Source of the DNA: Pirellulales bacterium
GTDB taxonomy: Bacteria; Planctomycetota; Planctomycetia; Pirellulales; Thermoguttaceae
Length of the DNA stretch: 44,808 bases
Direction: 5' to 3'
NCBI GenBank assembly: GCA_016931995.1
Contig: JAFGDS010000001.1
Span: forward strand, 1-44,808
Shown here piece by piece: positions 17,864-40,413 of this stretch. Both the position numbers and the translations under genes were made by a program. The notes under the pieces are model-generated. The model had not been told where the DNA came from. It searched no databases and saw nothing but the letters and a program-made list of their open reading frames with translations. Each line of letters starts with the position of its first letter. The first letter of the stretch is position 1.

Positions 17864-17897
17864 ATGGCGGTGGTCGGCGAGCAAGGAGATGGACGCC

Positions 17898-19103
17898 ATG
17901 AAGGTGCTTGTGGCGAATTTGGGCTCGACGAGCTTCAAGTATCGCTTGTTCGACATGGACAGCCGGCGGCAGTTGGCCCGCGGCGGGATCGAGCGGATTG
18001 GCTCGCCGGAGAGCCTGGCGGTCGTCGAGATCGGCTCGAACCGGCGCGAGCGGACGCTGCGCGTGCCCGACCACGCCGAGGCGGTCCGCCAGTGCCTGGC
18101 GCAGTTGACGGATCCGGTCCACGGCTGCCTGGGCGACGCGTCCGAGGTGGCGGCGATCGGGTTCAAGGCGGTCCATGGCGGTCGCTGCCGCGGGGTGCAG
18201 CGGGTCAGGAGCGAGTTGCTCGATGAGATGGATCGGCTCAACCATCTGGCGCCGGCGCACAACCCGGCCTACGTGGCGGCCATGCGCCAGCTCAACGAGC
18301 GGCTGCCGGACATCCCGCTGGTGGCGGCGTTCGAGACCGGCTTCCACGAGACGATCCCCGATCGGCGCCGGTACTACGCCGTGCCGTACGACTGGGCAGA
18401 AACGATGCTCGTGCGGCGTTGGGGATTCCACGGGGCAAGCCACCGCTACATCGCCGAGCGAACCGCCGAACTGTTGGGGCGCAATGATCTTCGGATCATC
18501 TCGTGCCACCTGGGCGGGTCGAGTTCCGTCTGCGCGATCCGCGACGGCAAGAGCGTGGCCAACAGTTTTGGCATGAGCCCGCAGAGCGGACTGCCGCACA
18601 ACAACCGCGTGGGCGAGTTCGACCCGTTCGCCTTGCCGGGCATCATGGCCCAGACGGACAAGTCGCTCGACGAGGTACTGTCCGCGCTCGCCCGCGAGGG
18701 CGGACTGCTGGGCCTGAGTGGCACGAGCGGCGACGCGAGGGATCTCTCGGCGGCGGCCGCCGCGGGCGACCGGCGGGCGCAGCTCGCCCTGGATGCGTTC
18801 GCCACGAGCGTGCGCGATTACCTGGGCGCGTATCTGGTCGAGCTGGGCGGGGCCGACGTCATCGTGATGACCGGCGGCATCGGCGAGCACTGCGGCGAGT
18901 TTCGGGCCATGGTCCTGCGCGATCTCGAGGCGCTGGGCATCCGGCTCGATCCGGCCGCCAACGCCCAGGCCGACGGCGAGGCCCGCATCAGCGCGGCGGA
19001 CAGCCGCGTGCAGATTTGGGTCGTGCCGACCAACGAGGAGTGGATCGTCGCTCGGCAAACCAAGGAATATCTGGAGAACGAGCCATGTTCGTCGGCAAAG
19101 TAA
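17898..19103 (+). CDS. ackA: acetate/propionate-type kinase (probable lactyl- or acetyl-phosphate kinase of the BMC)
   Basis: This ASKHA-fold enzyme makes ATP from an acyl-phosphate, here the PduL product. Motifs: [13 protein letters not shown] (N-terminal phosphate loop), [48 protein letters not shown] and [12 protein letters not shown]. The usual MGTRSGDIDP signature is changed to [12 protein letters not shown], keeping the Arg and Asp; this may reflect a different acyl substrate. The length, 401, is normal. ATG 17898 is preferred over 17889 because AAGGAG is 9 bases from the former and directly abuts the latter. The 3' end overlaps the following BMC-P gene by 19 bases. Confidence 0.95.
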
Positions 19104-19408
19104 CCGGCCAGGTGATCGCGACGAAAAAGACGGACGTGATGACCGGCCGCAAGCTGCTGTTGGTGGAGCCGTACGTGCTGGGACGCGAGAACCGCGAAAC
19201 GCTCAAGACCACCGGCCGCACGTTCGTGGCCGTGGACACGGTCGGCGCGGGCGAGGGCGAGTTCGTCCTCGTGGTTCAGGGCTCGAGCGCCCGGCTCACG
19301 CCCGAAACAAAGCCCCTGCCGGTCGACTGCGCGATCGTCGGCATTGTCGATTCCGTTCGCGCGGAGAACCGGTGCGTGTATTCCAAGGATGGAGTCGCGG
19401 ACGAGTAG
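19085..19408 (+). CDS. pvmH: BMC-P shell vertex protein (EutN/CcmL type), first copy
   Basis: A pentamer-forming vertex protein of 107 residues. Family landmarks: [46 protein letters not shown] and [16 protein letters not shown] precedes the ATG by 9 bases, inside the 3' end of ackA, so translation is probably coupled. PVM-type loci carry three distinct BMC-P genes; the other two are at 20968 and 21971. The symbol is by gene order. Confidence 0.95.
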
Positions 19409-19426
19409 GCGTCGTGTGCGATGAAA

Positions 19427-19525
19427 TGCGAAGCCGCAAGCGGCGGATTGGAAAAGCGAAAAGCCGAAAGCGGAAAGCCGTTTGACCTCCGAATTCCCCA
19501 ATCCCCCAACCCCCAACCCCCTATC
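19427..19525 (+). repeat. composite repeat: GCCGCAAGCGGC palindrome plus CCCCAAT array (family C), copy 2
   Basis: TGCGAAGCCGCAAGCGGC at 19427-19444, a purine-rich arm of AAAAGC/GAAAGC units, and a C-rich array (CCCCAATCCCCCAACCCCC) from about 19495 to 19522. The same three parts in inverted order and orientation make up 22254-22362; a third copy runs from 44724 to the window edge. It fills the gap before the aldehyde dehydrogenase and ends nine bases or fewer before its ATG. Confidence 0.85.
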
Positions 19526-19530
19526 CCGCC

Positions 19531-20967
19531 ATGCACGTTGACGAAGCCACCATTCGGACCGTCGTTCACGAGGTGCTCCATCGGCTGGGCGGCAATGGCG
19601 CGGCGCGGCCGGCCCAAGGGAGCCGCCGCGGGCGCTTCGGGCAATTCACCGACGCCGCCGAGGCCGTCCTGGCCGCCCGCGAGGCGTTCGACGAGCTTTC
19701 CGGAATCACGATCGAGGGCCGCAAGCGGATCATCGACCACATCCGGCGGATCTCGATCGACCAGGCCGTCGAACTGGGCACGATGGAGATGGAGGAGACG
19801 AAGATCGGGAAGCTGGAGCACAAGATCCTCAAACAGCGCGGCGTGGGCGAGACGACCCCCGGCGTCGAGTTCCTCCGCAGCGAGGTCTTCAGCGGGGATC
19901 ACGGACTGGCGGTGATCGAGCACGCCCCGTTCGGCGTCATCGCGGCCGTCTCGCCCGTGACGCACTCGCTGCCGACCATCACGTGCAACGCGATCAACAT
20001 GATTGCCTCGGGCAACACGGTGGTGTTCAATCCGCATCCCGGCGGAAAACGCGTCGCCGCCGAGGGCGTCCGCCGGTTCAACGAGGCCATCTACCGCGAC
20101 CTGGGCGTGGACAACCTGATCTGCGTGGTCACCGAGCCGACGCTGGAGACGGCCAACGTGCTGTTTACCCATCCCGAGGTGAGCCTGATTTGCGTCACGG
20201 GCGGCCCCGGCGTTGCCCGGGCGGCCATGCAGCAGTCGAAGCGTGCGATCGTGGCCGGTCCGGGCAATCCGCCGGTCGTTGTGGACGAGACCGCCGATCT
20301 GGACCGCGCCGCGCGCGAGATCATCCGCGGCGGGGCGTTCGATAACAACCTATTGTGCGTCGCCGAGAAGCAGGTGTTCGTCGTCACTCGGGTGTTCGAC
20401 GCGATGATGGCCGCCATGGAGCGGGCCGGCGCCGTCCGGTTGAACGGACGCGAGATCGACGCGCTCACCAAAGCCGCCATCACGACCGTTGGCGAAGGGA
20501 CCAAGGCGCACCAGGTGCCCATCAAGGAGTTCATCGGCCAGGACGCGGCCGTGTTGGCCCGGGCGGCGGGCAAGACCGTGCCGGCCGACGCGCCGATCCT
20601 ATTCGGCGAGACGGATTTCGAGAATCCGTTCGTTCCGGTCGAGCAGATGATGCCCTTCTTGCCCTTCGTCCGCGCCCGCGACGTGGATCACGCCATTGCC
20701 ATGGCCAAACAGAGCGAGCACGGCTTCCGCCACACGTCGATCATCCACTCGAACGACGTGCGGAACATGACGAAGATGGGCCGGATCATGGATACCACGT
20801 TGTTCGTGAAAAACGGGGCCAGCCTGGCCGCCCTGGGTAACGGCGGCGAGGGCTACGGATCGTACTCGATCGCCGGCCCAACGGGCGAAGGCGTGACCAC
20901 GCCGCTCACCTTCACCCGCGAGCGCCGCTGCACGCTGGCCGAGAGCTTGAGGATATTGGGGAAGTAG
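19531..20967 (+). CDS. CoA-acylating aldehyde dehydrogenase (PduP/EutE type), BMC cargo
   Basis: This enzyme oxidises L-lactaldehyde (or another short aldehyde) to the acyl-CoA using NAD+ and CoA in the BMC lumen. The 478-residue ALDH fold has the catalytic cysteine in GGAFDNNLLCVAEKQVF (about 260-276), GPGNPPVVVD for cofactor binding and FGVIAAVSPVTHSLPT. The N-terminal helix DEATIRTVVHEVLHRLGGNG is an encapsulation peptide with a linker of about 20 residues. The start codon comes directly after the C-rich repeat array and has no recognisable ribosome site. It is followed without a gap by the next BMC-P gene (stop TAG at 20965-20967, ATG at 20968). Confidence 0.95.
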   Translation: MHVDEATIRTVVHEVLHRLGGNGAARPAQGSRRGRFGQFTDAAEAVLAAREAFDELSGITIEGRKRIIDHIRRISIDQAVELGTMEMEETKIGKLEHKILKQRGVGETTPGVEFLRSEVFSGDHGLAVIEHAPFGVIAAVSPVTHSLPTITCNAINMIASGNTVVFNPHPGGKRVAAEGVRRFNEAIYRDLGVDNLICVVTEPTLETANVLFTHPEVSLICVTGGPGVARAAMQQSKRAIVAGPGNPPVVVDETADLDRAAREIIRGGAFDNNLLCVAEKQVFVVTRVFDAMMAAMERAGAVRLNGREIDALTKAAITTVGEGTKAHQVPIKEFIGQDAAVLARAAGKTVPADAPILFGETDFENPFVPVEQMMPFLPFVRARDVDHAIAMAKQSEHGFRHTSIIHSNDVRNMTKMGRIMDTTLFVKNGASLAALGNGGEGYGSYSIAGPTGEGVTTPLTFTRERRCTLAESLRILGK

Positions 20968-21228
20968 ATGCAAAACGCCCGGGTGATTGGAACGGCCACG
21001 GCCACGGTGAAACACCCTTCGATGCACGGGTGGAAGCTGCTGGTGGTTCAGCCGTTGGGACCGGACGGCCGGTCGGCCGATGGCGATCCGCTGTTGGCCG
21101 TGGACGCCCTGGGGGCGGGCGGCGACGACGTGGTGATTATTTCCAGCGACGGCCGGGGAGCGCGGGAGTTGATTGGGTGCGACAACACGCCGGTGCGTTG
21201 GACCGTATTGGGGATTGTGGATCGATGA
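20968..21228 (+). CDS. pvmK: BMC-P shell vertex protein, second copy
   Basis: A short EutN/CcmL-family protein of 86 residues: ARVIGTATATVKHPSMHGWK, LLVVQPLG, AVDALGAGGDDVVIISSDG and WTVLGIVDR. Its ATG directly follows the stop of the aldehyde dehydrogenase and its own stop overlaps the next start (ATGA at 21225). Tight coupling suggests co-translation in a fixed ratio. Symbol by order in the pvm locus. Confidence 0.94.
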   Translation: MQNARVIGTATATVKHPSMHGWKLLVVQPLGPDGRSADGDPLLAVDALGAGGDDVVIISSDGRGARELIGCDNTPVRWTVLGIVDR

Positions 21229-21956
21229 GCGCAACGCCGCGGGACGTGGACCAGATCGTTCGCGAGGTGCTCGCCCAGTTGGGCGCGGCGCCGGAGCCGG
21301 GGCGAACGCCGGCTCCGGCGACTGGTCCGGCGGATGCGGGTCCCGCCGGCGACGTTGCCGGCGAGCCGGGACACACGGTCCGCGCGACCGCCCGCGTGGT
21401 CACGTTGGCCGACGTCGGCCCGCGGCTTGGCAATGCCCGATGCTTGCTCGTTCCACCCGGCGCGGTCGTGACGCCGGCGGTGCGCGACGTGCTGCGCGAC
21501 CGCGGGATTTCGCTGTGTTTCGCCTCGGTGGAATCGCCGCCGGGGACGGCCGGCGGGACGCTCGCGATGGTCGTGGCGGTGAGCTCGTTCGATCCGGCGG
21601 CCGTGGTGGAGATTCTCCGCAAGAGCGGCCTGGTGGTCGAGCCGACGCGGTCGGCCTGCTTGATCGAGACGTGCGACCGCCTGGCCGAGGCGGCGAGTCG
21701 AGGGGGCCTGTTGGGCGTCGTGCTCACGCCGCACGTGGCCGCGGCGCTGTGCCTGGCGAATCGGCTCTCGGGCCTGCGGGCGGTCATGGCGGCGGATCCG
21801 GACCAGGCGGTCGAGGCGGCTCGGGCGGTCGGCGCCAACGTGCTGGTGGCTCGACCCGACGGATTCGCGCCCTATCGCCTGGGCCAGATGATCGCCCGAT
21901 TTGCCGCCGGCGCGCCGTACGCCTGCCCCGAGTCGCTTCGAGGACGATTGACATAG
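21225..21956 (+). CDS. BMC-associated protein with encapsulation peptide and degenerate RpiB/LacA-like domain
   Basis: The product has 243 residues. The N-terminal helix RDVDQIVREVLAQLGAAP matches the encapsulation peptides of PduL and the aldehyde dehydrogenase, followed by a Pro/Ala/Gly linker (about 21-48). A short segment with TPAVRDVLRDRGISL follows. Residues about 105-240 resemble ribose-5-phosphate isomerase B/LacA: GVVLTPHVAAALCLANRLSG and GLRAV..DPDQAVEAARAVG-ANVLV. At the position of the RpiB catalytic cysteine loop (CGTG) the sequence is TPHV, so isomerase chemistry by the standard mechanism is unlikely. The gene corresponds by position to an uncharacterised gene of the pvm locus. 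Its ATG overlaps the previous stop. A cargo or scaffold role is inferred. Confidence 0.82.
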   Translation: MSATPRDVDQIVREVLAQLGAAPEPGRTPAPATGPADAGPAGDVAGEPGHTVRATARVVTLADVGPRLGNARCLLVPPGAVVTPAVRDVLRDRGISLCFASVESPPGTAGGTLAMVVAVSSFDPAAVVEILRKSGLVVEPTRSACLIETCDRLAEAASRGGLLGVVLTPHVAAALCLANRLSGLRAVMAADPDQAVEAARAVGANVLVARPDGFAPYRLGQMIARFAAGAPYACPESLRGRLT

Positions 21957-21970
21957 GAAGGGAAACGGCC

Positions 21971-22276
21971 ATGCGCATCGCGGAAGTGATTGGCACGGTG
22001 ACGCTCAACCGGGCGCACCCGAGCCTATTGGGCGGGCGGTTCAAGCTGGCCGTGCCGTTGACGCTTGAGGATCTGCTCGGCCAGGGCGACCGCTCCGCGG
22101 AGATGATCGTTGTCTACGACGAGCTAGGCGCCGACGTCGGCTGCCGCATCGCCGTGAGCGAAGGCCGCGAAGCCGCCATGCCGTTCTACCCGGAGGACAA
22201 ACCGCTGGACGCCTACAACGCGGCGATCCTCGACGCGGTGTGCGCGCGGGGCAAGGGATTGGGGATTGGGGATTAG
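21971..22276 (+). CDS. pvmM: BMC-P shell vertex protein, third copy, with repeat-encoded tail
   Basis: An EutN/CcmL-family protein of 101 residues: MRIAEVIGTVTLNRAHPSLL, FKLAVPLTLEDLL, MIVVYDELGADVGCRIAVSE and a longer C-terminus with PFYPEDKPLDAYNAAILDAV. The last residues, GLGIGD, and the TAG stop are encoded inside the GGGGATT array of the adjacent repeat, so the original C-terminus has been altered by repeat insertion. GGAAGGGAAA lies 6 bases before the ATG. Confidence 0.93.
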   Translation: MRIAEVIGTVTLNRAHPSLLGGRFKLAVPLTLEDLLGQGDRSAEMIVVYDELGADVGCRIAVSEGREAAMPFYPEDKPLDAYNAAILDAVCARGKGLGIGD

Positions 22277-22362
22277 GGATTTGGGGATTTGGGGATTTGG
22301 GGTCGGGGGGTGGAATGAGTATCCGCTTTCCGCTTTTCCCATCCGCCGCTTGCGGCTTCGCA
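22254..22362 (-). repeat. composite repeat (family C), copy 3, inverted
   Basis: A GGGGATT/GGGGATTT array (about 22256-22310) is followed by CCGCTTTCCGCTTTTCCC and GCCGCTTGCGGCTTCGCA (22345-22362). It is the reverse complement in layout of the copy at 19427-19525. It overlaps the 3' end of the third BMC-P gene and fills the gap before the aldolase. G-runs of four or more, at least five in a row, could form a G-quadruplex on this strand. Confidence 0.85.
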
Positions 22363-22401
22363 AAACAAAACAAACACGCGTAAACGTCACGAGAACCACT
22401 C

Positions 22402-23271
22402 ATGGCCAACATCCACAAGATCAAGCAAGAGATCTGCGAAATCGGCGACCGGCTCTACAAGAAGGGCTTCGCCGCGGCCAACGACGGAAACATCAGCTAC
22501 CGCGTGGGCGACAACGAGGTCGTCTGCACGCCGACGATGATCTCCAAGGGCTTCATGAAGCCGGAGGACCTGTGCGTGGTGGACATGGAGGGCAAGCAGC
22601 TTTCGGGCCGGCGCAAGCGGACCAGCGAGATCCTGCTGCACCTGGCCATCATGAAGCGGCGACCCGAAGTCCGGTCGGTCGTGCATTGCCATCCGCCCCA
22701 CGCCACGGCCTTCGGCATCGCCCGCGAGCCCGTGCCGCAGTGCATCCTGCCCGAGGTGGAGATCTTCCTGGGCGAGGTGCCGATCGCGCGGTACGACATC
22801 CCGGGCAGCCAGCACTTCGCCGACACGATCCTGCCGTTCGTGGACAAGGCGAACGTGGTGATCCTGTCGAACCACGGCACGGTCAGTTGGGGGCAAACGG
22901 TGGAGCAGGCCTACTGGTGGACCGAGGTGCTCGACGCCTACTGCCGGATGCTCATGCTCGCCCGGGGACTGGGCCGTATCAACTACTTCAGCGAGCCGGA
23001 AGCCCGGGCCCTGCTGGAGTTGAAGGACAAGTGGGGCTTTTCGGATCCCCGCAACGAGATGAAGAACTGCGACATCTGCGCCAACGACGTCTTCCGCGAC
23101 AGTTGGCAGACGTGCGGGGTCCAGCAAAAAGCCTTCACGCCGCCGAGCTACCAAGGCAAGGACGCGCCGTCCAATGGCTCTGGGGCCACCGCCACGACCG
23201 CCGCCGATCGGGAAGCCCTGATTCAGACGATCACCGACCGCGTGATGGACGCGCTGACCCAGCGGACGTGA
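22402..23271 (+). CDS. pvmN: class II (zinc) aldolase of the fucose/rhamnose BMC
   Basis: This is the signature enzyme of PVM-type BMCs, cleaving L-fuculose/L-rhamnulose 1-phosphate to DHAP and L-lactaldehyde. AraD/FucA-fold motifs are visible: AANDGNISYRV, TPTMISKG, the zinc-site HCHPPHA and ILSNHGTVSWG. The C-terminal 20 residues, REALIQTITDRVMDALTQ, form an amphipathic encapsulation helix after a Ser/Gly/Thr linker, as known for PvmN. A Cys-rich stretch (KNCDICANDVF...TCG) lies before the linker. The product has 289 residues. Only GAGAA is present as a weak ribosome site. It is the last BMC gene; the convergent FAH gene follows. Confidence 0.95.
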   Translation: MANIHKIKQEICEIGDRLYKKGFAAANDGNISYRVGDNEVVCTPTMISKGFMKPEDLCVVDMEGKQLSGRRKRTSEILLHLAIMKRRPEVRSVVHCHPPHATAFGIAREPVPQCILPEVEIFLGEVPIARYDIPGSQHFADTILPFVDKANVVILSNHGTVSWGQTVEQAYWWTEVLDAYCRMLMLARGLGRINYFSEPEARALLELKDKWGFSDPRNEMKNCDICANDVFRDSWQTCGVQQKAFTPPSYQGKDAPSNGSGATATTAADREALIQTITDRVMDALTQRT

Positions 23272-25179: not shown

Positions 25180-25959
25180 TTAGGACTCCTTCTCCGCGTG
25201 AACCAGAAACCGTTCGCCGGGACGAAGTAGCAGGGCGTTCACTTCCGGACAAAGCGACCGGCACGCGTTCAGGTATCCGGCCGGGTCGGCGGCGCCGTGC
25301 TGGGCGAACGTCCAGAAATGGCACGGAATGGCGCATCGCGGTTTGGCCGCTTGCGTGAGCATCGCGGCGTCCATGTGGCCCATGTTGCCAAAGACGCCGT
25401 TGATGCAGGGCAAGAGCACGTCGGGCCGGAGCGCGAAGAGCGGCCCCAGCAGCCCAGGGCGGAACGCCGTGTCGCCCGTGCAAACGACGCGAACGCCGCC
25501 GCAGTCCAGGGCCAGCGACAACGCGGAGTCGGACAGGTCGCCATGGTCGGCCTTCACGGCGTCGATGGCGACGTTGCCCAACTCGACGCGCCGATTCGGC
25601 TCGAGCAGAACCCTCGCATCGCTGCGAACACCCGCGGCGGCGAGTCCTTCGGCGCAGCCGGCCGGCGCGGCGAACCGGCACTTGGGGTTGTTCCTGGCGA
25701 CGACGGGAAGCGCGTCGGGGTCGAGATGGTCGGCGTGCTCGTGCGTGAGCACGACCAGATCCGTCCGCACGTCCTCGGCGGCGATGGGTGGCAAGGACAG
25801 CCGCTTGAACCCGAAGAGCCGCTCGGCCGCGTCGGAGAGGTAGGGATCGAGGTAGACGACTGTCCCGCCGGGCGTCTTGAACACGAAACCCGCCTGACCC
25901 AGCCACCAGATTCCCAGTGCCCCCTGGGGCACCGGCTCGTCGAATTGCCAAAGGCTCAT
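25180..25959 (-). CDS. metallo-beta-lactamase-fold hydrolase, UlaG-like (probable sugar lactonase)
   Basis: A 259-residue MBL-fold enzyme: WLGQAGFVFKTPGG, the metal motif THEHADHLD, then CTGDTAFRPG and PCHFWTFAQHG. The closest named group is UlaG, L-ascorbate-6-phosphate lactonase. A lactone-opening step would fit the sugar-acid enzymes around it. The ATG at 25959 has GGGAG 7 bases upstream and overlaps the stop of the mutarotase-like gene by four bases (ATGA), so the two are co-translated. Substrate unknown. Confidence 0.88.
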   Translation of the reverse strand: MSLWQFDEPVPQGALGIWWLGQAGFVFKTPGGTVVYLDPYLSDAAERLFGFKRLSLPPIAAEDVRTDLVVLTHEHADHLDPDALPVVARNNPKCRFAAPAGCAEGLAAAGVRSDARVLLEPNRRVELGNVAIDAVKADHGDLSDSALSLALDCGGVRVVCTGDTAFRPGLLGPLFALRPDVLLPCINGVFGNMGHMDAAMLTQAAKPRCAIPCHFWTFAQHGAADPAGYLNACRSLCPEVNALLLRPGERFLVHAEKES

Positions 25960-27002
25960 GGTCGTGCTCCCAATAGCGCTCGGGCGGTCGTGTCGATGGC
26001 CTCGCGTGGGCCGCGGAACGCCCAGACCTGCGAGACGTCCTCGCCGAGCCGCGGATCGGGCGGCGCGCCCAGGGCCGGGGCGTGATACTCCAACTCGCAG
26101 AAGCTGCCAAAGTCCGGCTCGTCCACGCGGCACATCTGGAAACAGTAGCCCTCGTCCTCCAGGTCCGGCCGCTGCACGTCCACGTACCGCCCTGAGGGAT
26201 TCACGAAGAAGTTGCGGATGACGAGCGACCACCGGTCGCGATCGCCATACACGTATCCCGCCCGGCCGCACAGCGCGGCCGCCTTGATCGCGATTTTATG
26301 CGACCCGCTGAAGTTGACCTTCACGCGCAACAGGCGATCGTCCACGACAAGACTGTCTGACGGCACGTCGCCGAAGCATTTTTGCGGCGCGCTGGGGGCA
26401 TAAAGCGGCACGAGCATCTCGCCGCCGGGCGGAAGCTGCACGAGGTTCCAGATGCCCACGGCCGGCGGCTCGGCGTCGAGCGACCGCAGCGCCACCCGCT
26501 GCGTGTAGCCGGCGTAGTCGAGCCGTGCGGCGACGTCGGACAACTCCCGCTGGCACCGCAGCGGATGGGTGGCCGGGCCAAACCACTTGGTCAGCTCCAA
26601 CCAAACGTCGGCGCCCGTCCGCGCCAGGTGCAGCGTCATTTGCCGGGAGAGCTGGCATCCGCCGCCGACGCGATCTACCCGGTAGTCGCTCATGTCGAGT
26701 TCGCGCGGCTGCCAGTATTGCGTGAACGTGGCGTCGCGATAGAACGTGTCCAGCTCGGGCGCGATCCACGTGCGATCGCCGCCCGTGTTGTGCCAACCGT
26801 CGCCGGCGAAGTACGCCTTGGCGGCTTCCGCGTTTTGCAGGGCGTTATTCGTCCAGAAGAAATTGCCCTCGTCGCTCGGCGCGAACAACCCCAGCACGCG
26901 GGCGCCGTAGGGCAGCAGGGCCAGACGCGTGCCGTCGGGCAGGGCAACGTTCTCGGTCGGCTTGCCGGCGGCGGCGAGAACTTGCGAAAGAGCGTCGGAC
27001 AT
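25956..27002 (-). CDS. galactose-mutarotase-like protein (DUF6786 type suspected)
   Basis: The product has 348 residues with a beta-rich pattern and repeated FFW, WIAPELD, LELTKWFGP and YAGYTQRV segments that resemble aldose-1-epimerase-fold proteins. I associate the opening LPDGTRLALLPYGARVLGLF and TGGDRTWIAPE with the domain family DUF6786, but I am not certain of the number. No signal peptide is present, so it is cytoplasmic. GGGAG lies 9 bases upstream of the ATG. It is coupled to the MBL hydrolase (ATGA overlap) and follows the KDPG-type aldolase by 21 bp; a sugar-anomer or sugar-acid handling role is inferred. Confidence 0.72.
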   Translation of the reverse strand: MSDALSQVLAAAGKPTENVALPDGTRLALLPYGARVLGLFAPSDEGNFFWTNNALQNAEAAKAYFAGDGWHNTGGDRTWIAPELDTFYRDATFTQYWQPRELDMSDYRVDRVGGGCQLSRQMTLHLARTGADVWLELTKWFGPATHPLRCQRELSDVAARLDYAGYTQRVALRSLDAEPPAVGIWNLVQLPPGGEMLVPLYAPSAPQKCFGDVPSDSLVVDDRLLRVKVNFSGSHKIAIKAAALCGRAGYVYGDRDRWSLVIRNFFVNPSGRYVDVQRPDLEDEGYCFQMCRVDEPDFGSFCELEYHAPALGAPPDPRLGEDVSQVWAFRGPREAIDTTARALLGARP

Positions 27003-27718: not shown

Positions 27719-27791
27719 GTCATGCCGAGCGAAGCGAAGCATCTGGAGTGTGGCAAGGCCGACGAGATCCTTCGCTTCGCTCAGGCTGACA
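27719..27791 (+). repeat. GTCATGCCGAGCGAAGCGAAG repeat (family D), copy 1
   Basis: The element opens with CGTCATGCCGAGCGAAGCGA and ends with TTCGCTTCGCTCAGGCTGAC. The ends are imperfect inverted repeats of each other around a variable centre of about 20 bp. It fills most of the gap between the aldolase and the first URO-D gene. Further copies are at 33553-33626 and 34971-35044. Similar GAGCGAAGCGAAGGATCT elements are known from many bacterial genomes. Confidence 0.88.
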
Positions 27792-32489: not shown

Positions 32490-33521
32490 CTACCGTTGAA
32501 CGCGGCCGGAATCATTGCCCGCGAGGAGATGTTCGACTTCCTCTCGGGAGACGAGGTTGAAATCGCCGGGAATTGAATGTTTCAGACAGCCGGCCGCCGC
32601 GGCGAAGTCGATCGTCCGCCGCGGCTCGAAACCGGACAGAAGGCCGAAGATCAGCCCGGCCGCGAAGGCGTCGCCCCCGCCGACGCGATCGACAACGCGG
32701 ATCTCGTACTGCCGGCTGCGGCACAATCCGTCGCGGTGGCACAGCAGGGCCGACCAACGATTGATGGAAGCCGACGGGGCCTCGCGGAACGTCATGGCGA
32801 CGCCGTCGAGGTTGAATCGCCGGCGCGTCAATTCCGCCATGTGTTCATTGCGATCCTGGCCGGTGAGGTCTGGCCGCTCCGACTGGACTCCGAAGATCCG
32901 CTCCGGATCGTCCTTGCCGCAGATCAAGACGTTGACGCGATCCAACAGCGGCGCGAGCACGCGACCGGCCTCCTCCATGCTCCAAAGCTTGCTCCGGTAG
33001 TTGCAGTCGCAACTCACCGTGAGGCCCAACCGTCGGGCGGTCGCCAGTCCGGCGGAAAGCACCTCGACGACCGCGCCGCCCGCCGCCGGCGCCGTGCCCG
33101 AGAAGTGGAACCAGTCCTTGCCGGCGAGGACCGCGTCCCAGTCGAGATCGTCGGGCCGAAGCTGGCGGAAGCTGCTGGGCTGGCGGTCGTAGATCACCTT
33201 GGTGGGACGTTGCGACGCGCCGGCCTCCATGTACAGGAGGCCCAACCGGTCGCCGCCGCGGACTACGTGGTCGGTGTTCACGCCGAACCGCCGCAGGGCG
33301 TTGACGCATGCCTGGCCGATCTCGTGCTCCGGTACCTTCGAGACCACGTTCGCCTCGACGCCGAACTGCGCAAGCGACACGGCCGCATTCGCCTCCGCGC
33401 CGGTGTAGCGGGCGACAAACTCGTCGGCCTGCACCAGGCGGCGGTTTCCCGTTGCGCTAAGGCTCAAAAGCAATTCGCCAAAGGTCACGACTCGTTTCAT
33501 GGACGTCGGACGGTATTCCAT
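32490..33521 (-). CDS. PfkB-family sugar kinase, 2-keto-3-deoxygluconate kinase-like
   Basis: A ribokinase-fold kinase of 343 residues: VTFGELLLSLS, GAEANAAVSLAQFG, VSCDCNYRSKLW (typical of KdgK) and VDRVGGGDAFAAGL with the catalytic Asp; the usual GAGD loop is GGGD here. It would phosphorylate 2-keto-3-deoxy-gluconate or -galactonate for the KDPG-type aldolase at 27024. The start at 33521 has only AGG 7 bases upstream; ATG 33500 (MKRVVTFGE) is an alternative. Family A and D repeats bound it on both sides. Confidence 0.9.
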   Translation of the reverse strand: MEYRPTSMKRVVTFGELLLSLSATGNRRLVQADEFVARYTGAEANAAVSLAQFGVEANVVSKVPEHEIGQACVNALRRFGVNTDHVVRGGDRLGLLYMEAGASQRPTKVIYDRQPSSFRQLRPDDLDWDAVLAGKDWFHFSGTAPAAGGAVVEVLSAGLATARRLGLTVSCDCNYRSKLWSMEEAGRVLAPLLDRVNVLICGKDDPERIFGVQSERPDLTGQDRNEHMAELTRRRFNLDGVAMTFREAPSASINRWSALLCHRDGLCRSRQYEIRVVDRVGGGDAFAAGLIFGLLSGFEPRRTIDFAAAAGCLKHSIPGDFNLVSREEVEHLLAGNDSGRVQR

Positions 33522-33552: not shown

Positions 33553-33626
33553 CGTCATGCCGAGCGAAGCGAAGCATCTGGACTCCTTTGACGCCACCGA
33601 GATCCTTCGCTGCGCTCAGGATGACG
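33553..33626 (+). repeat. family D repeat, copy 2
   Basis: It starts CGTCATGCCGAGCGAAGCGA and ends GAGATCCTTCGCTGCGCTCA then GGATGACG, with a variable centre. It has the same orientation as the copy at 27719 and lies between the RhaT and PfkB genes. Confidence 0.88.
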
Positions 33627-33650: not shown

Positions 33651-34892
33651 CTACTTGGGTATCGTGTTGGCGTAGGCCATGATCGCGGTGGCCATAAGGA
33701 GCAGGGCGATGGCGACGTACATCTGCCGCCGCGGAGCGCCGAAGACGCCTCGCCATTCGCCGCTTATGAAGCCGAGCCCTTGGCCGCCGACCATTTGCAT
33801 GGCCTGCTGGATGCCGGCCCCGACCGACGCGCCGAGCACGCCCAGGAGCAACATGCCCTTGCTGGCCAGGGCCACCGCGGCGCAAAACTGAAAACCGATC
33901 ATGGTGGCCAGGGCGCATTCCTTCCAGTTTTCGGCGAAGACGCCCCAGGTCCGGCGGCGGGTCAACAGAAAAACGGGGTAGAGGATGTTGATCAGGGCTC
34001 CGCCGAGCAGTCCCACCGCCTGGACGGGCAGAATCGCCAGGAGGTTGCGGGCGTCGACGGTCACTTTCGGGTCGGCCTCGGACTGCGCGATTCCGAGCCG
34101 TGAGGCGATCTCGTCGCCGGCGGCCTTGGCCGTCAGTCCGCCGAGGCGGATCGCGACCAAGGCTTCCTTGCCCCTCATCGCGATGACGCCTTCGTCGTTG
34201 ACGGCATACTCGCCGCTGGCTCGTTCGTCGCCGGCCACCGTGACCTTGATTGTGGTGTTGTTTTCGACCGTGCTGACCCGTTCGACGATCGGCCCTTGGC
34301 TGTAGACGAAGGCCAGCATCATCCCGGCCGAGGTCACGCCGGCGATGACGGTCATGACCAGGCCGACGAGGAAGCTGCCGGACGTTTTTTGGAGCTTCTT
34401 GAGTTGCCGGTCGCGTCCGAAGCCCGCCACCGACGCGAAGGCCACGGCGACGAGCATGACGCCGATTCCGCAGAGGATGGTCAATCCGGCGGGCGACGCG
34501 AGATCGGGGGCGTCCTGGAAGAGTCCCGACCCTTTGAAGACCAGCGGCGCGATCGAGGCCACCGAGACGCCCAGGCCGGTCAGGATGGCCGTGGTCAGGG
34601 CGACGCCGATCCGCACGAAGCACAACGCGCAAAGGACGTTGGCGATGCCCCAGCTCACCGAGCACGCGTTCGAGATCAAAAGGGCCGAAAGGGGCACGTC
34701 GCGGATCGCCTGGAAGAAGTTCGGAAAGGCCACAAGCGTGATCGTCCACGGCACGATGACCAATCCAAGCGACATGCCGATGAGCCACCAGTGCTCGAAC
34801 TGGAGGTTCTTGACGATTTTGATGGGCCAGATGCCCGTGCCCATCAAAAGCCCGCCCGCCGCCACGACGAGCACGCCCAGGATCATGTCCAT
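33651..34892 (-). CDS. rhaT: RhaT-type L-rhamnose/H+ symporter with an inserted Wza-like (Poly_export-like) domain
   Basis: RhaT imports L-rhamnose with protons across the inner membrane. Family features: TGIWPIKIVKNLQFEHWWLIG near the N-terminus, SNACSVSWGIANVLCALCFV, GGALINILYPVFLL and about ten hydrophobic helices. The protein has 413 residues, about 70 more than E. coli RhaT. The excess is one hydrophilic segment at about 203-286 between two helices: GEYAVNDEGVIAM, VAIRLGGLTAKAAGDEIASRL and ADPKVTVDA. This follows the pattern of the polysaccharide export (Wza N-terminal) domain. ATG 34892 has GGAGG 8 bases upstream; ATG 34898 is too close to it. It is flanked by family D repeats. The transporter call is secure; the insert identity is a pattern match. 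Confidence 0.9.
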   Translation of the reverse strand: MDMILGVLVVAAGGLLMGTGIWPIKIVKNLQFEHWWLIGMSLGLVIVPWTITLVAFPNFFQAIRDVPLSALLISNACSVSWGIANVLCALCFVRIGVALTTAILTGLGVSVASIAPLVFKGSGLFQDAPDLASPAGLTILCGIGVMLVAVAFASVAGFGRDRQLKKLQKTSGSFLVGLVMTVIAGVTSAGMMLAFVYSQGPIVERVSTVENNTTIKVTVAGDERASGEYAVNDEGVIAMRGKEALVAIRLGGLTAKAAGDEIASRLGIAQSEADPKVTVDARNLLAILPVQAVGLLGGALINILYPVFLLTRRRTWGVFAENWKECALATMIGFQFCAAVALASKGMLLLGVLGASVGAGIQQAMQMVGGQGLGFISGEWRGVFGAPRRQMYVAIALLLMATAIMAYANTIPK

Positions 34893-34970
34893 CGTCATGC
34901 CCTCCGGGTTATCCTTTGGTCAAAGAGTCGGCGTCCGAACCATCGTCCTATCTTGTGGCCACTTTGTCCT

Positions 34971-35044
34971 CGTCAGCCTGAGCGAAGCGAAGGATCTCCG
35001 TGGCGCGACGTGAATCGAGATGCTTCGCTTCGCTCGGCATGACG
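34971..35044 (-). repeat. family D repeat, copy 3, inverted
   Basis: It reads CGTCAGCCTGAGCGAAGCGA at the left and CTTCGCTTCGCTCGGCATGACG at the right, the reverse complement of the copies at 27719 and 33553. It fills the gap between the GH36 and RhaT genes, so RhaT is bracketed by two oppositely oriented copies. Confidence 0.87.
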
Positions 35045-35087: not shown

Positions 35088-37124
35088 CTACGGACCGACT
35101 CGTTTGTACTTAATGAGCACCGCGCCCGGCTTGTCCGAAATCGCGATCGCCAGGCCGGCGTCCATCAATTCCTTGCCGGTCAGCTCGTGGGCGTCCTGGG
35201 CGTCCAGGTCCGTCACGGCGTAACGCGCCTCTGGGTCCAGACCGTGAAGCCTGTACTGGGCGGAGACGTAGGGGCTTCCGGCGCGGCGGAACGCCTGGAC
35301 GAATCCGTCGCCTTGCTCCGGCCTGTCGAACTGCCAAGCGATCCACGCGGCATCGTCCAGATTGTGCGGCGTGAGCGGGTAATAGTCGCCCAACATGCAG
35401 CCGGCCACGTCGCGCCATTGGCCGATCAGGCGACGGTAAAGGTCCCAATCCATCTCGTTCTTGCGGACGTCGGTGACGATCGCGAACGACGGACACATGT
35501 AGCTCCGCACGCAGTAGACGAAGCTGTTGGGCTGATAGTACACGCCCTGGCCGTAGAACGGGATCCACGACGACAGGCCGTACGTGTGGCCCTGGTTGCC
35601 GGGGGCGGTTTCCGCGCCGCCCCATTGGTAGTCGCTCCGCAGGAGCGGAACGGCGCGGCGCAGGGTTTCGATGTCGTTGCGTCGTCCGCCGCCCGAGCAA
35701 CTGTCGATGAGCATCCCGGGATGGCGCCGCAACAATTCGTCCCAATAGGCCAGATAGCCCTGGACGTGCAGGTTTTCGGTCACACCCTGCCGGTCGGGCG
35801 CGTCCGCCCCGCGCCAATACGGCAGCGGCGCGATGTTGAAGTCCTGCCGGTACAGGTCGATGCCCTGTTCGGTGATGAGCTTATCGACGTGGTTGACGAG
35901 CCAGTTCCAGGCGTCGCGGTTGCCCAGGTTCAGCAGTCCGCCGCCCGCGCCGCCGAGGATCCACTCGGGATGGTTTTTGGTCAGCCACGTGTCCGGCGCG
36001 GCCCGCTCGGGCTCGAACCAGACGATGAGCTTGGTGTCGCGGGCGTGGACGTAATCGCTCACGGCCCGCAGGCCGTTGGGATACCGCTCGGGATCGGGTT
36101 CCCAGGTGCCGGTATTCTGCCAGGCGTCCTTGCAGGGATACCAGCCGGCGTCGATCCACCAATAGTCCAGTTGGATTTGCTCCTGGCCCAGCTTGTCGAT
36201 GAAGAGCTTTTCGAGCGACTCGCTCGTCTTCAGCCCAGGCACCAGGCCGCCATCGCAGAAAGACAAGATCGGCGCAATGGCCTTCCCGCCTGGCCGGGGC
36301 AGATTGTGCGCGAGCATCCACCGCCGCCAGAGGTTTTGCGCGCGGACCGGATCGTCGCCCTTCCAGAACATCAGGGCCACCAGCGGCGCGCGGATTTCCT
36401 CGCCGGGCTTTAAAGTAAGATGCGTGAGTTCCTGCCCCGCGACAACGCGCAGCCCCGCGGCCGCGTCGCGGGCGAAGCGCGCCGCCCATTGGCCGGGCCA
36501 GCCGATCACGACGATCGTGCCCCCGCCGGGCACTTGGACGTTGTAGTAGGGGAAAACGCCGTCCGTGGGGCGCCCCACCGAGGGGGGCGCGAACGTCTTC
36601 GTCGCCCCAGGGTCGAGCGTCAGGGCGAAAGGCTGGTAGCTGTCGGGCGAGCAATTGTCGCCGCTCATGCCGCGCAGGAGATACTCCCCGCCCTCGCCCC
36701 GCGAGAGTCCCAGGTCGATCGCCTGGATGCCCTGCAGGATCGGCGTGTTGACGCTGCCCGCGTTGCGGAAGTAGACCGTCCATTCGACGACCGGGAAATC
36801 GCCGTACTCGACGCCGACGCAGCGGACCGCGAGGCCGGTCTTCGGATCGGTGTAGGTGGTTGCGTATTCGGTCCGCCGGTCGTCCAAACGGCGCGTGGTT
36901 CGTTTGGCTTCCCATGACGCGAGCAGCTCGGCCGACGGCTTGTCGTCGTAGGTGAAGGAGAAGGGCGGCTCGGCTTTCGGCGCGTCCGCGGCGCCCTCGA
37001 GCCGGGCGGCGGCCCAACGCCGGGCGGCGGCCATTTCGTCGGGCGTGGGGGCCACGGCCAACGCGAGAGAGGCAAACGCGGCCCAAAGGGCGGCCGCAAG
37101 CCCGAGCGGGATCGTCTTCCTCAT
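35088..37124 (-). CDS. secreted GH36/melibiase-type alpha-galactosidase
   Basis: A 678-residue glycoside hydrolase. A signal peptide (about 1-24, ends ASLALAVAP) exports it. An N-terminal beta-sandwich domain (to about 270) precedes the catalytic barrel: LDYWWIDAGWYP, KLIVWFEPERAAPDTW, the nucleophile Asp in IDLYRQDFN and the acid/base Asp in PLLRSDYQWGG. A C-terminal beta domain ends the protein. It would release galactose from plant or algal galactosides in the periplasm or outside. The ATG at 37124 overlaps the regulator stop (ATGA) and has AGGAA 8 bases upstream, so the two genes are co-translated. Confidence 0.92.
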   Translation of the reverse strand: MRKTIPLGLAAALWAAFASLALAVAPTPDEMAAARRWAAARLEGAADAPKAEPPFSFTYDDKPSAELLASWEAKRTTRRLDDRRTEYATTYTDPKTGLAVRCVGVEYGDFPVVEWTVYFRNAGSVNTPILQGIQAIDLGLSRGEGGEYLLRGMSGDNCSPDSYQPFALTLDPGATKTFAPPSVGRPTDGVFPYYNVQVPGGGTIVVIGWPGQWAARFARDAAAGLRVVAGQELTHLTLKPGEEIRAPLVALMFWKGDDPVRAQNLWRRWMLAHNLPRPGGKAIAPILSFCDGGLVPGLKTSESLEKLFIDKLGQEQIQLDYWWIDAGWYPCKDAWQNTGTWEPDPERYPNGLRAVSDYVHARDTKLIVWFEPERAAPDTWLTKNHPEWILGGAGGGLLNLGNRDAWNWLVNHVDKLITEQGIDLYRQDFNIAPLPYWRGADAPDRQGVTENLHVQGYLAYWDELLRRHPGMLIDSCSGGGRRNDIETLRRAVPLLRSDYQWGGAETAPGNQGHTYGLSSWIPFYGQGVYYQPNSFVYCVRSYMCPSFAIVTDVRKNEMDWDLYRRLIGQWRDVAGCMLGDYYPLTPHNLDDAAWIAWQFDRPEQGDGFVQAFRRAGSPYVSAQYRLHGLDPEARYAVTDLDAQDAHELTGKELMDAGLAIAISDKPGAVLIKYKRVGP

Positions 37125-37825
37125 CGGTCGTGTTCCTCGTACCAGCCCAGGTGGCGTCGCAACAGCGCGACGGCGTCGTCGAGTTTGCCCTCGTGCAGGG
37201 CTTCGACGATCTGGCAGTGCCCCTTCTTTCCGCCCCGAACGTCGCCGCAGACGGTGCGGTCGCGATACTCGCGAAAGAACGCTTGCAGAAGGTCGCAAAA
37301 GGACGCCAACGGCGTGATGTCGCTGGCCTCGACCAGACCGCGATGGAACGCGATGTCGTATTCGATCCAGCGATCGTCCAGGCGATCGGTGGGCGGCGCC
37401 GACTCGGCCAGCGCGCGCAACTGCCGGTAGACGGCCTCGTCGGCGCGCATGGTCTCCATGGTGTAGTAAAGCGAGCCCGTCTCGATCACCGCCCGGGCTT
37501 TCAGCAGCGACTCCCGGGGATAATCGCTCAGGGCAAAGTGGAAGCCGAAGTACTCGCTCACGCGGCTGAAATCGAAGTCGTCAATCACCATCCCGCGGCG
37601 CGGCGTGGCCCCGATCACGCCCAGAAAGTCCAGAGCCTTCGTGGCCTCGCGGACCACCGTGCGGCTGACGCCGAACCGCTCGACCATCTCCTGCTCGGTC
37701 AGCAGCGGGTCGCCGGGCTTGAGACCCTTTTCGATGATGTACTTGCGGAGCTGCGCCGTGAGCTCCTCGCCGAGCCTCTTGCGGCGGAGTGGACGCTTGG
37801 GCGGGCCGTTCATGGGCGTGTCCAT
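37121..37825 (-). CDS. FCD-domain GntR-family transcriptional regulator
   Basis: A 234-residue regulator: winged helix LGEELTAQLRKYIIEKGLKP, GDPLLTEQEMVERFGVSRTV, then VREATKALDFLGVIGATPRRG; the all-helical FCD ligand domain includes RAVIETGSLYYTM, YDIAFHRGLVEAS and HCQIVEALHEGKLDDAV, carrying the metal-site His/Asp residues. FCD regulators sense organic or sugar acids. It heads the minus-strand sugar operon (GH36 overlaps its stop) and is divergent from the dehydrogenase-complex genes. A 23-bp palindrome in the shared promoter region is the likely operator. ATG 37825 is used; 37813 is possible. No strong ribosome site. Confidence 0.93.
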   Translation of the reverse strand: MDTPMNGPPKRPLRRKRLGEELTAQLRKYIIEKGLKPGDPLLTEQEMVERFGVSRTVVREATKALDFLGVIGATPRRGMVIDDFDFSRVSEYFGFHFALSDYPRESLLKARAVIETGSLYYTMETMRADEAVYRQLRALAESAPPTDRLDDRWIEYDIAFHRGLVEASDITPLASFCDLLQAFFREYRDRTVCGDVRGGKKGHCQIVEALHEGKLDDAVALLRRHLGWYEEHDR

Positions 37826-37835
37826 GGGAAATAGC

Positions 37836-37864
37836 TTGACAGGCCGTATTTGTAGTATGATAAT
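37836..37864 (+). promoter_or_regulatory. sigma-70-type promoter of the dehydrogenase-complex operon
   Basis: TTGACA at 37836-37841 (perfect) and GATAAT at 37859-37864 (5 of 6) with a 17-base spacer. The start point would be near 37871, giving a leader of about 62 nt to the ATG at 37933. This is the best promoter match in the window. Confidence 0.6.
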
Positions 37865-37870
37865 GCAAAT
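37848..37870. promoter_or_regulatory. 23-bp palindromic operator for the FCD regulator
   Basis: The sequence from ATTTG (37848-37852) to CAAAT (37866-37870) is a palindrome centred on G37859, with 9 of 11 base pairs matching and an inner TAT-G-ATA. It covers the -10 of the plus-strand promoter and also that of the putative minus-strand promoter, so a bound dimer would block both. The regulator is inferred from adjacency. Confidence 0.6.
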
Positions 37871-37884
37871 CCCGTCCGCTGCAA
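37857..37884 (-). promoter_or_regulatory. putative divergent promoter of the FCD-regulator/GH36 operon
   Basis: On the minus strand TTGCAG (37884-37879) and TATCAT (37862-37857, 5 of 6) are spaced by 16 bases. The leader to the ATG at 37825 would be about 25 nt. The -35 is weak, so this is less certain than the plus-strand promoter that shares the operator. Confidence 0.35.
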
Positions 37885-37932
37885 TAGCCCCTGGCCCTGC
37901 CTCGGTTTGCGTTTTCCCTGGAGTTCCCCGAA

Positions 37933-40413
37933 ATGTCGTCGCCCGGCGCCGCCCGCGAACAAATGCCCAAAGAGGGGGGGCAAGTGCCATCCGCCTCGGA
38001 GCTGGTCCACCTCTACCGACGGATGCTGCTCATCCGACGCTTCGAGCAGACCGCCCAGCTCATGTACCGCAACGGCGAGTTGCCGGGCTTCATCCATCTT
38101 TATATTGGCGAGGAAGCCACGGGCGTGGGCGTCATGGCCCACCTTCGCGAGGACGACTGGATCACCAGCACCCACCGCGGACACGGCCACGCGTTGGCCA
38201 AGGGCGTGCCGCCGAGGATCGTCCTGGCCGAACTGGCCGGCAAGGCGACCGGCTGTTGCGGCGGACGCGGCGGCAGTATGCACCTTTATTCTCCGGCGCA
38301 CGGCCTGTTTGGCACCAACGGTGTCGTCACCGCCGGCATCCCGTCGGCCGTCGGACTGGCCCTCAGCGCGAAGACGCGGGGCACGGATCAAGTGGCCGTG
38401 GCCTTCTTTGGCGACGGGGCCACCAACCACGGGGCGTTCCACGAGGCGGTCAATTTCGGCAGCGTCCAGAACGCGCCGGTTGTGTTCGTCTGCGAAAACA
38501 ACCTCTACGCCACGGCCACGCCACTGGCAATGGCCACCCGCAACACGAATATCGCCAGCAAGGCCGCCGCCTACGGGATCCCCGGCGTGCGGGTGGATGG
38601 AAACGACGTGGTGGCCGTGTGGCAAGCCGCGGGCGAGGCGGTCGGCCGTGCCCGCTCGGGTCAGGGACCCACGCTGATCGAATCGCTCACGTACCGGCAG
38701 GTGGGCCACCAGGAAGGCGATCCGGTAATCGGATGGCGCCGCACGCAGGAGGAATGGGACTCCTGGGTGGAACGTTGTCCCGTGGCGACGTTCCGCCGCC
38801 GGCTCGTCGAGTCGGGCACCGCCGCCGAGGCCGACCTCGCGGCGATCGAGGCGGAGGTGGAGCGGGAGATCGAGGAGGCGATCGAGTTCGCCCGAAGCTC
38901 GCCGCGCCCCGATCCGGCGACCGCCACGGCGCACACGTGGGCGGAGCCGATCAACCCACCGCTTCGTTTCGCCGACCCCGACGTCGCGCCGGCCGACACG
39001 AAGACGCAGAGCTGGCTCGAGGCGGTCCGCGACGGCATCGCCGAGGAGATGCGCCGCGATCCGAACATCATCTATTTTGGCGAGGGCACCGGCGACCGCG
39101 GCGGGTCGTTGGGCCACACCAAAGGGCTCCACGCGGAGTTCGGCGAGAGCCGCCTGATCGACACGCCCATCTGCGAATTGGGCTTCACCGGCGCGTCGAT
39201 CGGCGCGTCGGCCACCGGTTGCCGCGCGGTGGCCGACTTGATGATGGGCGATTTCCTCTGGGAATCGGCCAGTCAGATCGTGCTCCAGGCGGCCAAGCTT
39301 CGCTACATGACCAACGGGCAGTTGTCCGTGCCCATGGTGGTTCGCGCGTTTCTGGGCGTGGTGAAGAACGCCGGCCCGCACCACAGCGGCTCGTATCATC
39401 CCGTTTGGGCCCACTGCCCGGGGCTCATCGTCGTCGTCCCCTCCAATCCCGCCGACGCGAAGGGGCTTTTCAAGACGGCCCTGCGGGCAAGCGATCCCGT
39501 GATATTCCTCGAGCACAAGTCGCTCGCGTCCAGCAAGGGCCCCGTGCCGACGGAGGAATACTACATTCCCTTTGGTCAAGCCAAGATCATCCGCGCCGGC
39601 AGCGACCTGACCATCGCGTCCTGCGGACTCATGGCGCACCGCTCGATGGCTGCGGCCGAACAACTCGCCGCGCAGGGCGTCTCCTGCGAAGTGATCGACC
39701 TGCGGACGATCGTCCCCTTGGATGTCGAGACGGTCGCGACAAGCGTGGCCAAGACGGGCAGGCTGCTGGTGGTGGACGAGGGCTATTCGATGTGCGGCAT
39801 CGGGGCCGAATTGGCCGCGGCCGTGATGGAGCAGGCCTTCGACGAGCTGGACGCCCCCGTGGGCCGGCTGCACGTCGAGCCGGTGTCGCACCCGTTCAGC
39901 CCGCCGTTGGAGGACGCGGTTTTGCCCAACGCGGAGCGAATCGCGGCGGCCGCGCGGTCGGTGATCGCCGGTCGCCCGCCCGTCCCGCGCCGCGCCATGG
40001 GTCTTCCGCGCAAGACCGCTTTGGTGTCCTCCGCCGGCGGCGACGGCCAGCCGCGTGCCGAAGACCGTCCGGATTTTCACGTTGGGGACTGTCCCGATTT
40101 TCGCGCCAGCGAAAAAGGGACTATCCCCCTCGATGCCGCTCTCGCCTCGCCGTCCTCTCCGCCCGCCGACCGCTCCCGCCGCGTGCCGATCCTCATGCCG
40201 AACATGGACCTCATCATTACCGAGGCCACGGTGGTGGCGTGGTCGAGGCAGGTAGGCGACCGGGTGACCAAGGGCGAGACGCTGCTGGAGATCGAGACCG
40301 ACAAGTCGGTTTGGGAGGTGGAATCGCCCGCCGACGGCGTCCTGGTGGAAATCTCCGCCGGCGATGGCACGGTGGTTCCGCTGGGGCAAACCATCGGATT
40401 CATCCAACCCTGA
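37933..40413 (+). CDS. 2-oxo acid (acetoin/pyruvate-type) dehydrogenase E1 alpha-beta fusion with C-terminal lipoyl domain
   Basis: The 826-residue fusion carries E1-alpha (about 22-320; TPP site GDGATNHGAFHEAVNFG...CENN), E1-beta (about 355-690; YFGEGTGDRGGSLGHTKGL, IDTPICELGFTGASIG, EHKSLASSKGPVP), a low-complexity linker and a lipoyl domain (about 748-826; VPILMPNMDLIITEATVV). The lipoylated lysine is K791 in ETDKSVW. E1 oxidatively decarboxylates a 2-oxo acid, or cleaves acetoin, and passes the acyl group to lipoate. In most complexes the lipoyl domain belongs to E2; the next gene's E2 lacks one. Residues about 712-733 are encoded by a dispersed repeat. GGAG lies 9 bases before the ATG. 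Substrate is not certain; E3 is not in the window. Confidence 0.93.
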   Translation: MSSPGAAREQMPKEGGQVPSASELVHLYRRMLLIRRFEQTAQLMYRNGELPGFIHLYIGEEATGVGVMAHLREDDWITSTHRGHGHALAKGVPPRIVLAELAGKATGCCGGRGGSMHLYSPAHGLFGTNGVVTAGIPSAVGLALSAKTRGTDQVAVAFFGDGATNHGAFHEAVNFGSVQNAPVVFVCENNLYATATPLAMATRNTNIASKAAAYGIPGVRVDGNDVVAVWQAAGEAVGRARSGQGPTLIESLTYRQVGHQEGDPVIGWRRTQEEWDSWVERCPVATFRRRLVESGTAAEADLAAIEAEVEREIEEAIEFARSSPRPDPATATAHTWAEPINPPLRFADPDVAPADTKTQSWLEAVRDGIAEEMRRDPNIIYFGEGTGDRGGSLGHTKGLHAEFGESRLIDTPICELGFTGASIGASATGCRAVADLMMGDFLWESASQIVLQAAKLRYMTNGQLSVPMVVRAFLGVVKNAGPHHSGSYHPVWAHCPGLIVVVPSNPADAKGLFKTALRASDPVIFLEHKSLASSKGPVPTEEYYIPFGQAKIIRAGSDLTIASCGLMAHRSMAAAEQLAAQGVSCEVIDLRTIVPLDVETVATSVAKTGRLLVVDEGYSMCGIGAELAAAVMEQAFDELDAPVGRLHVEPVSHPFSPPLEDAVLPNAERIAAAARSVIAGRPPVPRRAMGLPRKTALVSSAGGDGQPRAEDRPDFHVGDCPDFRASEKGTIPLDAALASPSSPPADRSRRVPILMPNMDLIITEATVVAWSRQVGDRVTKGETLLEIETDKSVWEVESPADGVLVEISAGDGTVVPLGQTIGFIQP
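40067..40131. repeat. hairpin repeat inserted in the E1-lipoyl linker coding sequence
   Basis: GTCCC-GA-TTTTCGC (40091-40104) pairs with GCGAAAA-A-GGGAC (40109-40121) around a GCCA loop; the flanks GGGGACTGTCCC and GGGACTATCCCC belong to a GGGACAGTCCC-type repeat that I know as widespread in planctomycete intergenic DNA. Here it lies inside a gene, in frame. Only one copy is in the window, so the repeat status rests on that prior knowledge. Confidence 0.6.

Follow-up and report, generated by a model that had tools for sequence, protein, structure and literature searches.

The window, that is, the whole stretch of 44,808 nucleotides that was analyzed, encodes a RhaT-family transporter with a DMT-like fold and a Poly_export insert. 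The open reading frame extends over 33651-34898 on the minus strand, and the start at 34892 chosen in the preliminary description of this DNA gives a protein of 413 aa (33651..34892, stop codon included). All three parts of the gene are read from the minus strand. The N-terminal membrane part (residues 1-206, TM1-TM6; 34275..34892) was delimited by a PF06379 match and the helices of a structural model. The insert occupies the TM6-TM7 loop (residues about 207-283; 34044..34274). The C-terminal membrane part (residues 284-413, TM7-TM10; 33654..34043) contains the model helices 284-313, 323-349, 351-376, and 386-410 and aligns with insert-free relatives.

The order of genes around the transporter is GntR regulator, GH36-type glycosidase, transporter, PfkB kinase, 2-hydroxyacid dehydrogenase, and malate/lactate-type dehydrogenase; a DUF6786 gene, an SDR gene, an FAA hydrolase gene, and a lactamase-fold gene lie further on in the window. 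The GntR/FCD regulator gene (37121..37990, minus strand; PF00392 and PF07729) precedes the genes of the glycosidase and the transporter, and its stop codon is overlapped by the start codon of the GH36-type gene (35088..37124, minus strand; coordinates by counting). The product of the latter matched Melibiase (1e-22) and the GH36 C-terminal domain, and its N-terminus resembles a signal peptide by eye. The PfkB-type sugar kinase gene is downstream (32490..33521, minus strand; PF00294), and its scores with NCBIfam models of 2-keto-3-deoxygluconate-type kinases were below the cut-offs. The best NCBIfam model for the FAA hydrolase was 2,4-didehydro-3-deoxy-L-rhamnonate hydrolase, with 216 bits against a cut-off of 500. 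Unscanned neighbors were named by BLAST grouping or from the first residues of their proteins. It is plausible that this locus serves deoxysugar catabolism, and three genes at 17889-23271 add to this: those for acetate kinase, for an aldehyde dehydrogenase that matches the PRK15398 model, and for a class II aldolase. A fucose/rhamnose microcompartment type is described for planctomycetes in the accessible part of PMC4207490, and these three genes resemble it at the level of enzyme genes. REP-like palindromes with a GAGCGAAGCGAAG core were found at 33562-33617, 34980-35035, and 27727-27782, flanking the transporter gene on both sides. The REP-like regions on either side of the transporter are 79% complementary over 104 nt. 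Searching the genome for an 18-base pattern taken from the element gave 261 occurrences, versus 0 for the reversed pattern as a control.

The RhaT membrane fold proposed in the preliminary description was confirmed. PF06379 (RhaT) matched residues 5-208 of the window protein (E 1.1e-14; 54.9 bits against a cut-off of 27), with the match ending at profile position 204 of 344, and all eight further insert-bearing proteins (bearers) scanned also passed this cut-off. In tests with four NCBIfam RhaT equivalogs, the window protein was far under the cut-offs (126.2/369, 93.7/468, 56.3/523, and 50.8/509). Therefore, by that test, it is a member of the RhaT family, not an E. coli-type rhamnose symporter. 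The full-length AlphaFold model, which was built from a 19-row alignment, had a mean pLDDT of 85.2, and its helices were counted as ten. Between TM6 and TM7, residues 213-280 fold into a small domain with five strands and a single helix. In Foldseek, the whole model matched the DMT-type transporters Vrg4, CMP-sialic acid transporter, and LicB with a probability of 1.00; the best E was 1.5e-3 (Vrg4), LicB had a TM of 0.69 by target, and no match reached E≤0.001. WzaB appeared at rank 30 for the whole model, over 77 columns. We conclude that the window protein is a RhaT-family transporter with a ten-helix DMT-like fold. Sugar uptake is inferred from the family.

The insert was examined by sequence, profile, and fold. 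PF02563 (Poly_export) matched residues 214-280 of the window protein with E 7.1e-5 and 23.3 bits, under the cut-off of 28. The Pfam scan covered nine bearers, the window protein and eight others, and left out the tenth, G1027. PF02563 was found in seven of the eight others (best 1e-11); in total, eight of the nine matched, five of them over the cut-off, and the sole miss was L045, which had no PF02563 match at E≤1. In the reverse search, a profile of nine inserts matched at E≤0.001 in 116 of the 392 genomes of the phylum. Eleven domains retrieved in this manner were given to Pfam, and all 11 were Poly_export. A profile-profile comparison of the inserts with these 11 domains, which had been retrieved by the insert profile and each of which matches PF02563 independently, gave a probability of 99.1. 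When the nine-insert profile was searched against the PDB, the top match was 9n9a (WzaB, a polysaccharide export protein; E 1.5e-4), and Wza followed with E from 0.04 to 0.05. Between them ranked a chain of a zinc-ATPase (E 0.004), which was taken as chance. Profiles were required for these matches; no PDB match was obtained by sequence when only the window protein, or only one OPX domain, served as the query. A profile of the full family gave one PDB match, which was judged to be chance.

Modeled alone, the insert had a pLDDT of 82.5. The first-ranked Foldseek match of this model was WzaB, a class-3 OPX protein (probability 1.00; E 1.7e-3), and Wza was absent among the 50 matches listed. In VIA, the first nine ranks went to WzaB, with Z 10.4, and to eight Wza entries, which matched over about Wza residues 80-169 with Z between 8.1 and 6.4; an unrelated fold followed at rank 10 with Z 4.3. 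The isolated insert has a Poly_export-type fold, not an unrelated one. Residues about 207-283 are, thus, a Poly_export domain by sequence, profile, and fold, as the preliminary description had proposed, and the limits given there (203-286) were correct to within a few residues. The anatomy alone, namely, a RhaT-family transporter with a Poly_export domain in its TM6-TM7 loop, is in our opinion almost certain.

The preliminary description had also considered that this segment may be a normal loop of all RhaT homologs. This is ruled out by close relatives that have a short loop and no insert. One scan of the contigs of the genome collection retrieved 19 loci: eight bearers, ten insert-free relatives, of which L052 has an unrelated extension at the site, and L061, which ends before the site. 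The insert-free relatives with a short loop, from four phyla, are 45-59% identical to the window protein; L129, also insert-free, reaches 58-63% by segment. At the site of the insert, insert-free proteins typically read YSQGPIVEAMKARGAGEIPANFAVWA, with about 8 loop residues (about AMKARGAG), whereas bearers read about YSQxPIVANLS-(domain)-TGSIPANFGVWA. The graft comprises about 78 residues, and insert-free relatives align unbroken on both of its flanks. All ten bearers have the insert in frame in the same TM6-TM7 loop; the comparison of homologs for loop and side that had been suggested for this protein, thus, gave one loop, and the side, inferred from charge bias, is discussed below. Chance and mis-assembly are ruled out by ten bearers on different contigs and records. 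The genome of the window has two other RhaT genes (C89 and C46), neither of which is among its 12 listed Poly_export places.

In the samples searched, the ten distinct bearers (the window protein, L044-L050, L060, and G1027) all belong to Planctomycetota. When the window protein was the query, 13 of the 392 genomes of this phylum gave a match at E≤0.001, and only G000 and G290 matched through the insert; the G290 protein is the same as L048. Surveys of orders and of other phyla used a profile of nine bearers. The order of L045 (195 genomes) gave 57 matches, including two bearers, both known (L044 and L045). A continuous match in G541, of the same order, was a RhaT protein with an unrelated extension and not a bearer. 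In the order of L047 (114 genomes; E≤1e-30), the four matches were three bearers, with G1027 being new, and the close insert-free protein G1018. At the same threshold, no bearer was present among the two matches in 240 genomes of Verrucomicrobiota (the phylum of L056) or the nine matches in 151 genomes of Armatimonadota (the phylum of L057). Acidobacteriota were sampled only through the loci of the 19-locus contig scan. Carriage by viruses or plasmids was rejected: no relative was confirmed in viral contigs, and plasmids gave no match. L102 (1402-2904) and L052 (1372-2535) encode RhaT proteins with unrelated extensions in the same TM6-TM7 loop, that of L102 being helical-looking by eye; therefore, this loop seems to tolerate insertions.

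In a tree of only 75 domain columns, the ten inserts formed one clade (100/99) versus 34 ordinary Poly_export domains, six of which came from the genome of the window by PF02563 and 28 via the insert profile (11 Pfam-checked and 17 not). This points to one acquisition. Trees of the core columns varied with the rows included. The 19-row tree contained one insert change (support 89/87). The 34-row tree contained three changes, with AU p 0.06 against one clade and the long branch L125 placed among the bearers. The removal of five long-branch rows (L125, L018, L019, L119, and L052) left a 29-row tree with two changes, and a single clade passed the AU test (AU p 0.28). The two changes are due to the insert-free L129, which branches between the pair that includes the window protein and the remaining eight bearers; this pattern would be compatible with a gain plus a loss, and equally with poor resolution. 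The core trees allow a single origin, but do not establish it. Two separate acquisitions are not favored, given the single clade of the domain tree and the AU result with 29 rows. We propose that an inner-membrane RhaT-family sugar transporter acquired an OPX-type Poly_export domain, probably once, within Planctomycetota.

The side of the membrane was assessed from charge. Mean K+R values were 2.9, 1.0, 4.2, 2.8, and 2.8 for loops 1, 3, 5, 7, and 9, and 0.1, 1.8, and 0.1 for loops 2, 4, and 8. Loop 6 had a mean of 1.6 in rows without the insert. Loops 3 and 4 break the alternation, and the charge rule is imperfect because loop 4 exceeds loop 3. By this rule, the charge bias suggests that loop 6 with its insert faces the periplasm. 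The periplasm is the compartment in which Poly_export is at home. The topology of E. coli RhaT has reportedly been studied by experiment. Judged by title, none of the papers found on RhaT topology, or on RhaT with planctomycetes, was on point, so that charge bias is the basis for the periplasmic side.

Neighboring genes were compared among nine bearer loci. The GH36-type gene also adjoins the transporter in L044 (BLAST grouping). An SDR gene before the transporter and a follower gene of one ~350 aa family after it were found in five of the nine (L045, L046, L047, L049, and L060). The SDR gene adjoins the transporter in L048, and the layouts of the window, L044, and L050 differ. Among insert-free loci, L051, L055, and L056 also have the SDR-transporter-follower layout, whereas L053 and L058 have the follower alone. 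Since several bearer loci have the same layout as insert-free loci, the neighborhood gives no hint of a new function. The follower family recurs beside the transporter in several phyla (L045-L047, L049, L051, L053, L055, L056, L058, and L060). Within the window, the gene at 25956-27002 (minus strand) matched DUF6786 with 27.1 bits (cut-off 27) and was tied to the follower family by eye; the L051 copy of the follower had no Pfam match at E≤0.001, and DUF6786 was named in no paper found in a literature search. No OPX, porin, or other outer-membrane gene tracking the insert was recognized in the part of the flanking ORFs that was scanned.

Since the core keeps the transporter fold, it would presumably still import a (deoxy)sugar. 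The grafted domain would most likely serve in the periplasm as a docking or scaffold module, with another protein of the periplasm or the outer membrane as its partner. This role is proposed by analogy to Wza, in which the same domain touches Wzc, a protein of the inner membrane. The accessible part of PMC12881504 reports that the deletion of D1 from Wza abolishes Wza-Wzc colocalization, and that D99 and E102 are interface residues. If that source uses the numbering of entry 9r60, counting along the chain places both residues in the WDHPEL loop, which belongs to the Poly_export domain. In the columns of the domain alignment, the E102 position is acidic in six of the ten inserts (L044, L046, L047, L048, L049, and L128), although the assignment is uncertain for L046 and L128, where 4 additional residues occur. 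It is glycine in L045, deleted in L050 and L060, and arginine in the window protein; therefore, the Wza interface is not simply conserved. According to the accessible part of PMC9603273, SLBB is the part of OPX proteins that is predicted to contact the polymer. Together with the contact between Wza D1 and Wzc, this makes docking a better-founded guess than sugar binding. The statement as a whole, that a RhaT-family transporter carries a grafted Poly_export domain that was probably acquired once and acts as a docking or scaffold module, is tentative, and we would not yet call it probable. A more specific version, in which the domain would couple the inner-membrane transporter to a periplasmic glycosidase or outer-membrane protein in an envelope-spanning uptake unit, with a docking part of export being reused for import, is distinctly improbable at present.

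The domain may instead be a folded decoration under weak constraint that has no specific partner or ligand and is tolerated in a permissive TM6-TM7 loop. The unrelated extensions of L052 and L102 in this loop are consistent with such a passenger, as is the insert-free L129, the branching of which among the bearers makes loss possible. Evolutionary rates also point in this direction. The insert is the fastest-evolving part of the protein, with a mean pairwise identity among nine bearers of 34% versus 65% for the core. In three close pairs, omega was 0.47, 0.22, and 0.77 for the insert and 0.05, 0.13, and 0.17 for the core, and non-synonymous change in the insert was 2 to 7 times that in the core. 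Omega of the insert was significantly below 1 in only one pair, L050-L060 (0.22, p 3e-6), and not in the other two. However, selection in that pair speaks against a mere passenger, as do the reading frame, which is intact in all ten bearers, and the recognition of Poly_export in eight of the nine bearers scanned despite the low mean identity. So the domain is kept, with its sequence loosely held. A passenger has some chance of being the correct reading, but is on balance unlikely.

Oligomerization or gating is also conceivable. The insert domains may pack as the D1 domains of the Wza ring or cover the outward vestibule, thereby regulating substrate entry. The octamer of Wza is built in part from its D1 domains, and the insert is positioned directly between TM6 and TM7 on the inferred periplasmic side. 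However, the AlphaFold model came without an error matrix and does not give the orientation of the domain relative to the core, and we regard a role of this kind as unlikely. The carbohydrate-binding module put forward in the preliminary description would capture sugar oligomers in the periplasm and raise the local substrate supply, with or without handover from a partner in the outer membrane. The inferred compartment fits, and so does the GH36-type glycosidase with its signal-peptide-like start, which adjoins the gene in the window and L044. In contrast, SLBB, the predicted polymer-contacting part named above, is absent from the insert, and the only residues that are invariant across the aligned inserts are P, I, V, G, and A, none of them aromatic or charged. 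This putative function is very improbable. Docking to a partner remains our preferred reading.

Among known systems, the RhaT family (L-rhamnose/H+ symporters; PF06379; DMT superfamily) resembles the window protein in profile match and ten-helix DMT-like fold. However, the window protein differs from this family by the Poly_export domain in its TM6-TM7 loop and by its score with the nearest equivalog (126 bits versus 369). The insert-free relatives (L051, L053-L059, L062, and L129) have the same core, and several have the same neighbor genes, but an ~8-residue loop in place of the domain. We found no paper that joined RhaT with Poly_export, or PF02563 with PF06379, in a search outside of which most subscription journals lay. 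A literature search for a Poly_export domain with transporter and fusion listed only a paper on a Burkholderia exopolysaccharide cluster. This architecture may well be present in protein databases.

The insert resembles OPX proteins of classes 1-3 (Wza, KpsD, and WzaX/S/B) in Poly_export sequence and fold, and probably resides in the same compartment. However, the bearers lack SLBB and an outer-membrane part, have lost the PGD aspartate, and carry the domain inside a polytopic membrane protein. The window protein had no SLBB match at E≤10 and the eight further bearers had none at E≤1 in Pfam; in the model, membrane helices follow the insert directly. The ten bearers have 7-11 hydrophobic segments versus 0-3 in 39 Poly_export-protein loci, five of which repeat a protein. 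The PGD aspartate was present in none of the ten inserts, with L048 and L060 having an aspartate one column earlier, versus 29 of the 34 Poly_export domains, in which the five exceptions were from one related group. Four Poly_export proteins of the genome of the window have two in-frame Poly_export matches (L005/L010, L006/L007, L009/L014, and L011/L012), and the domain taken from each of them is without the PGD aspartate. We conclude that the bearers are not OPX proteins. In the accessible part of PMC9603273, the rule for OPX proteins is Poly_export followed by at least one SLBB domain, and Poly_export without SLBB inside a polytopic secondary transporter departs from this rule. Since close relatives with an empty site form a natural deletion series, what a periplasmic accessory domain does for a DMT-type transporter can be tested directly. 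If docking is true, planctomycetes have reused a part of the polysaccharide export machinery for sugar uptake.
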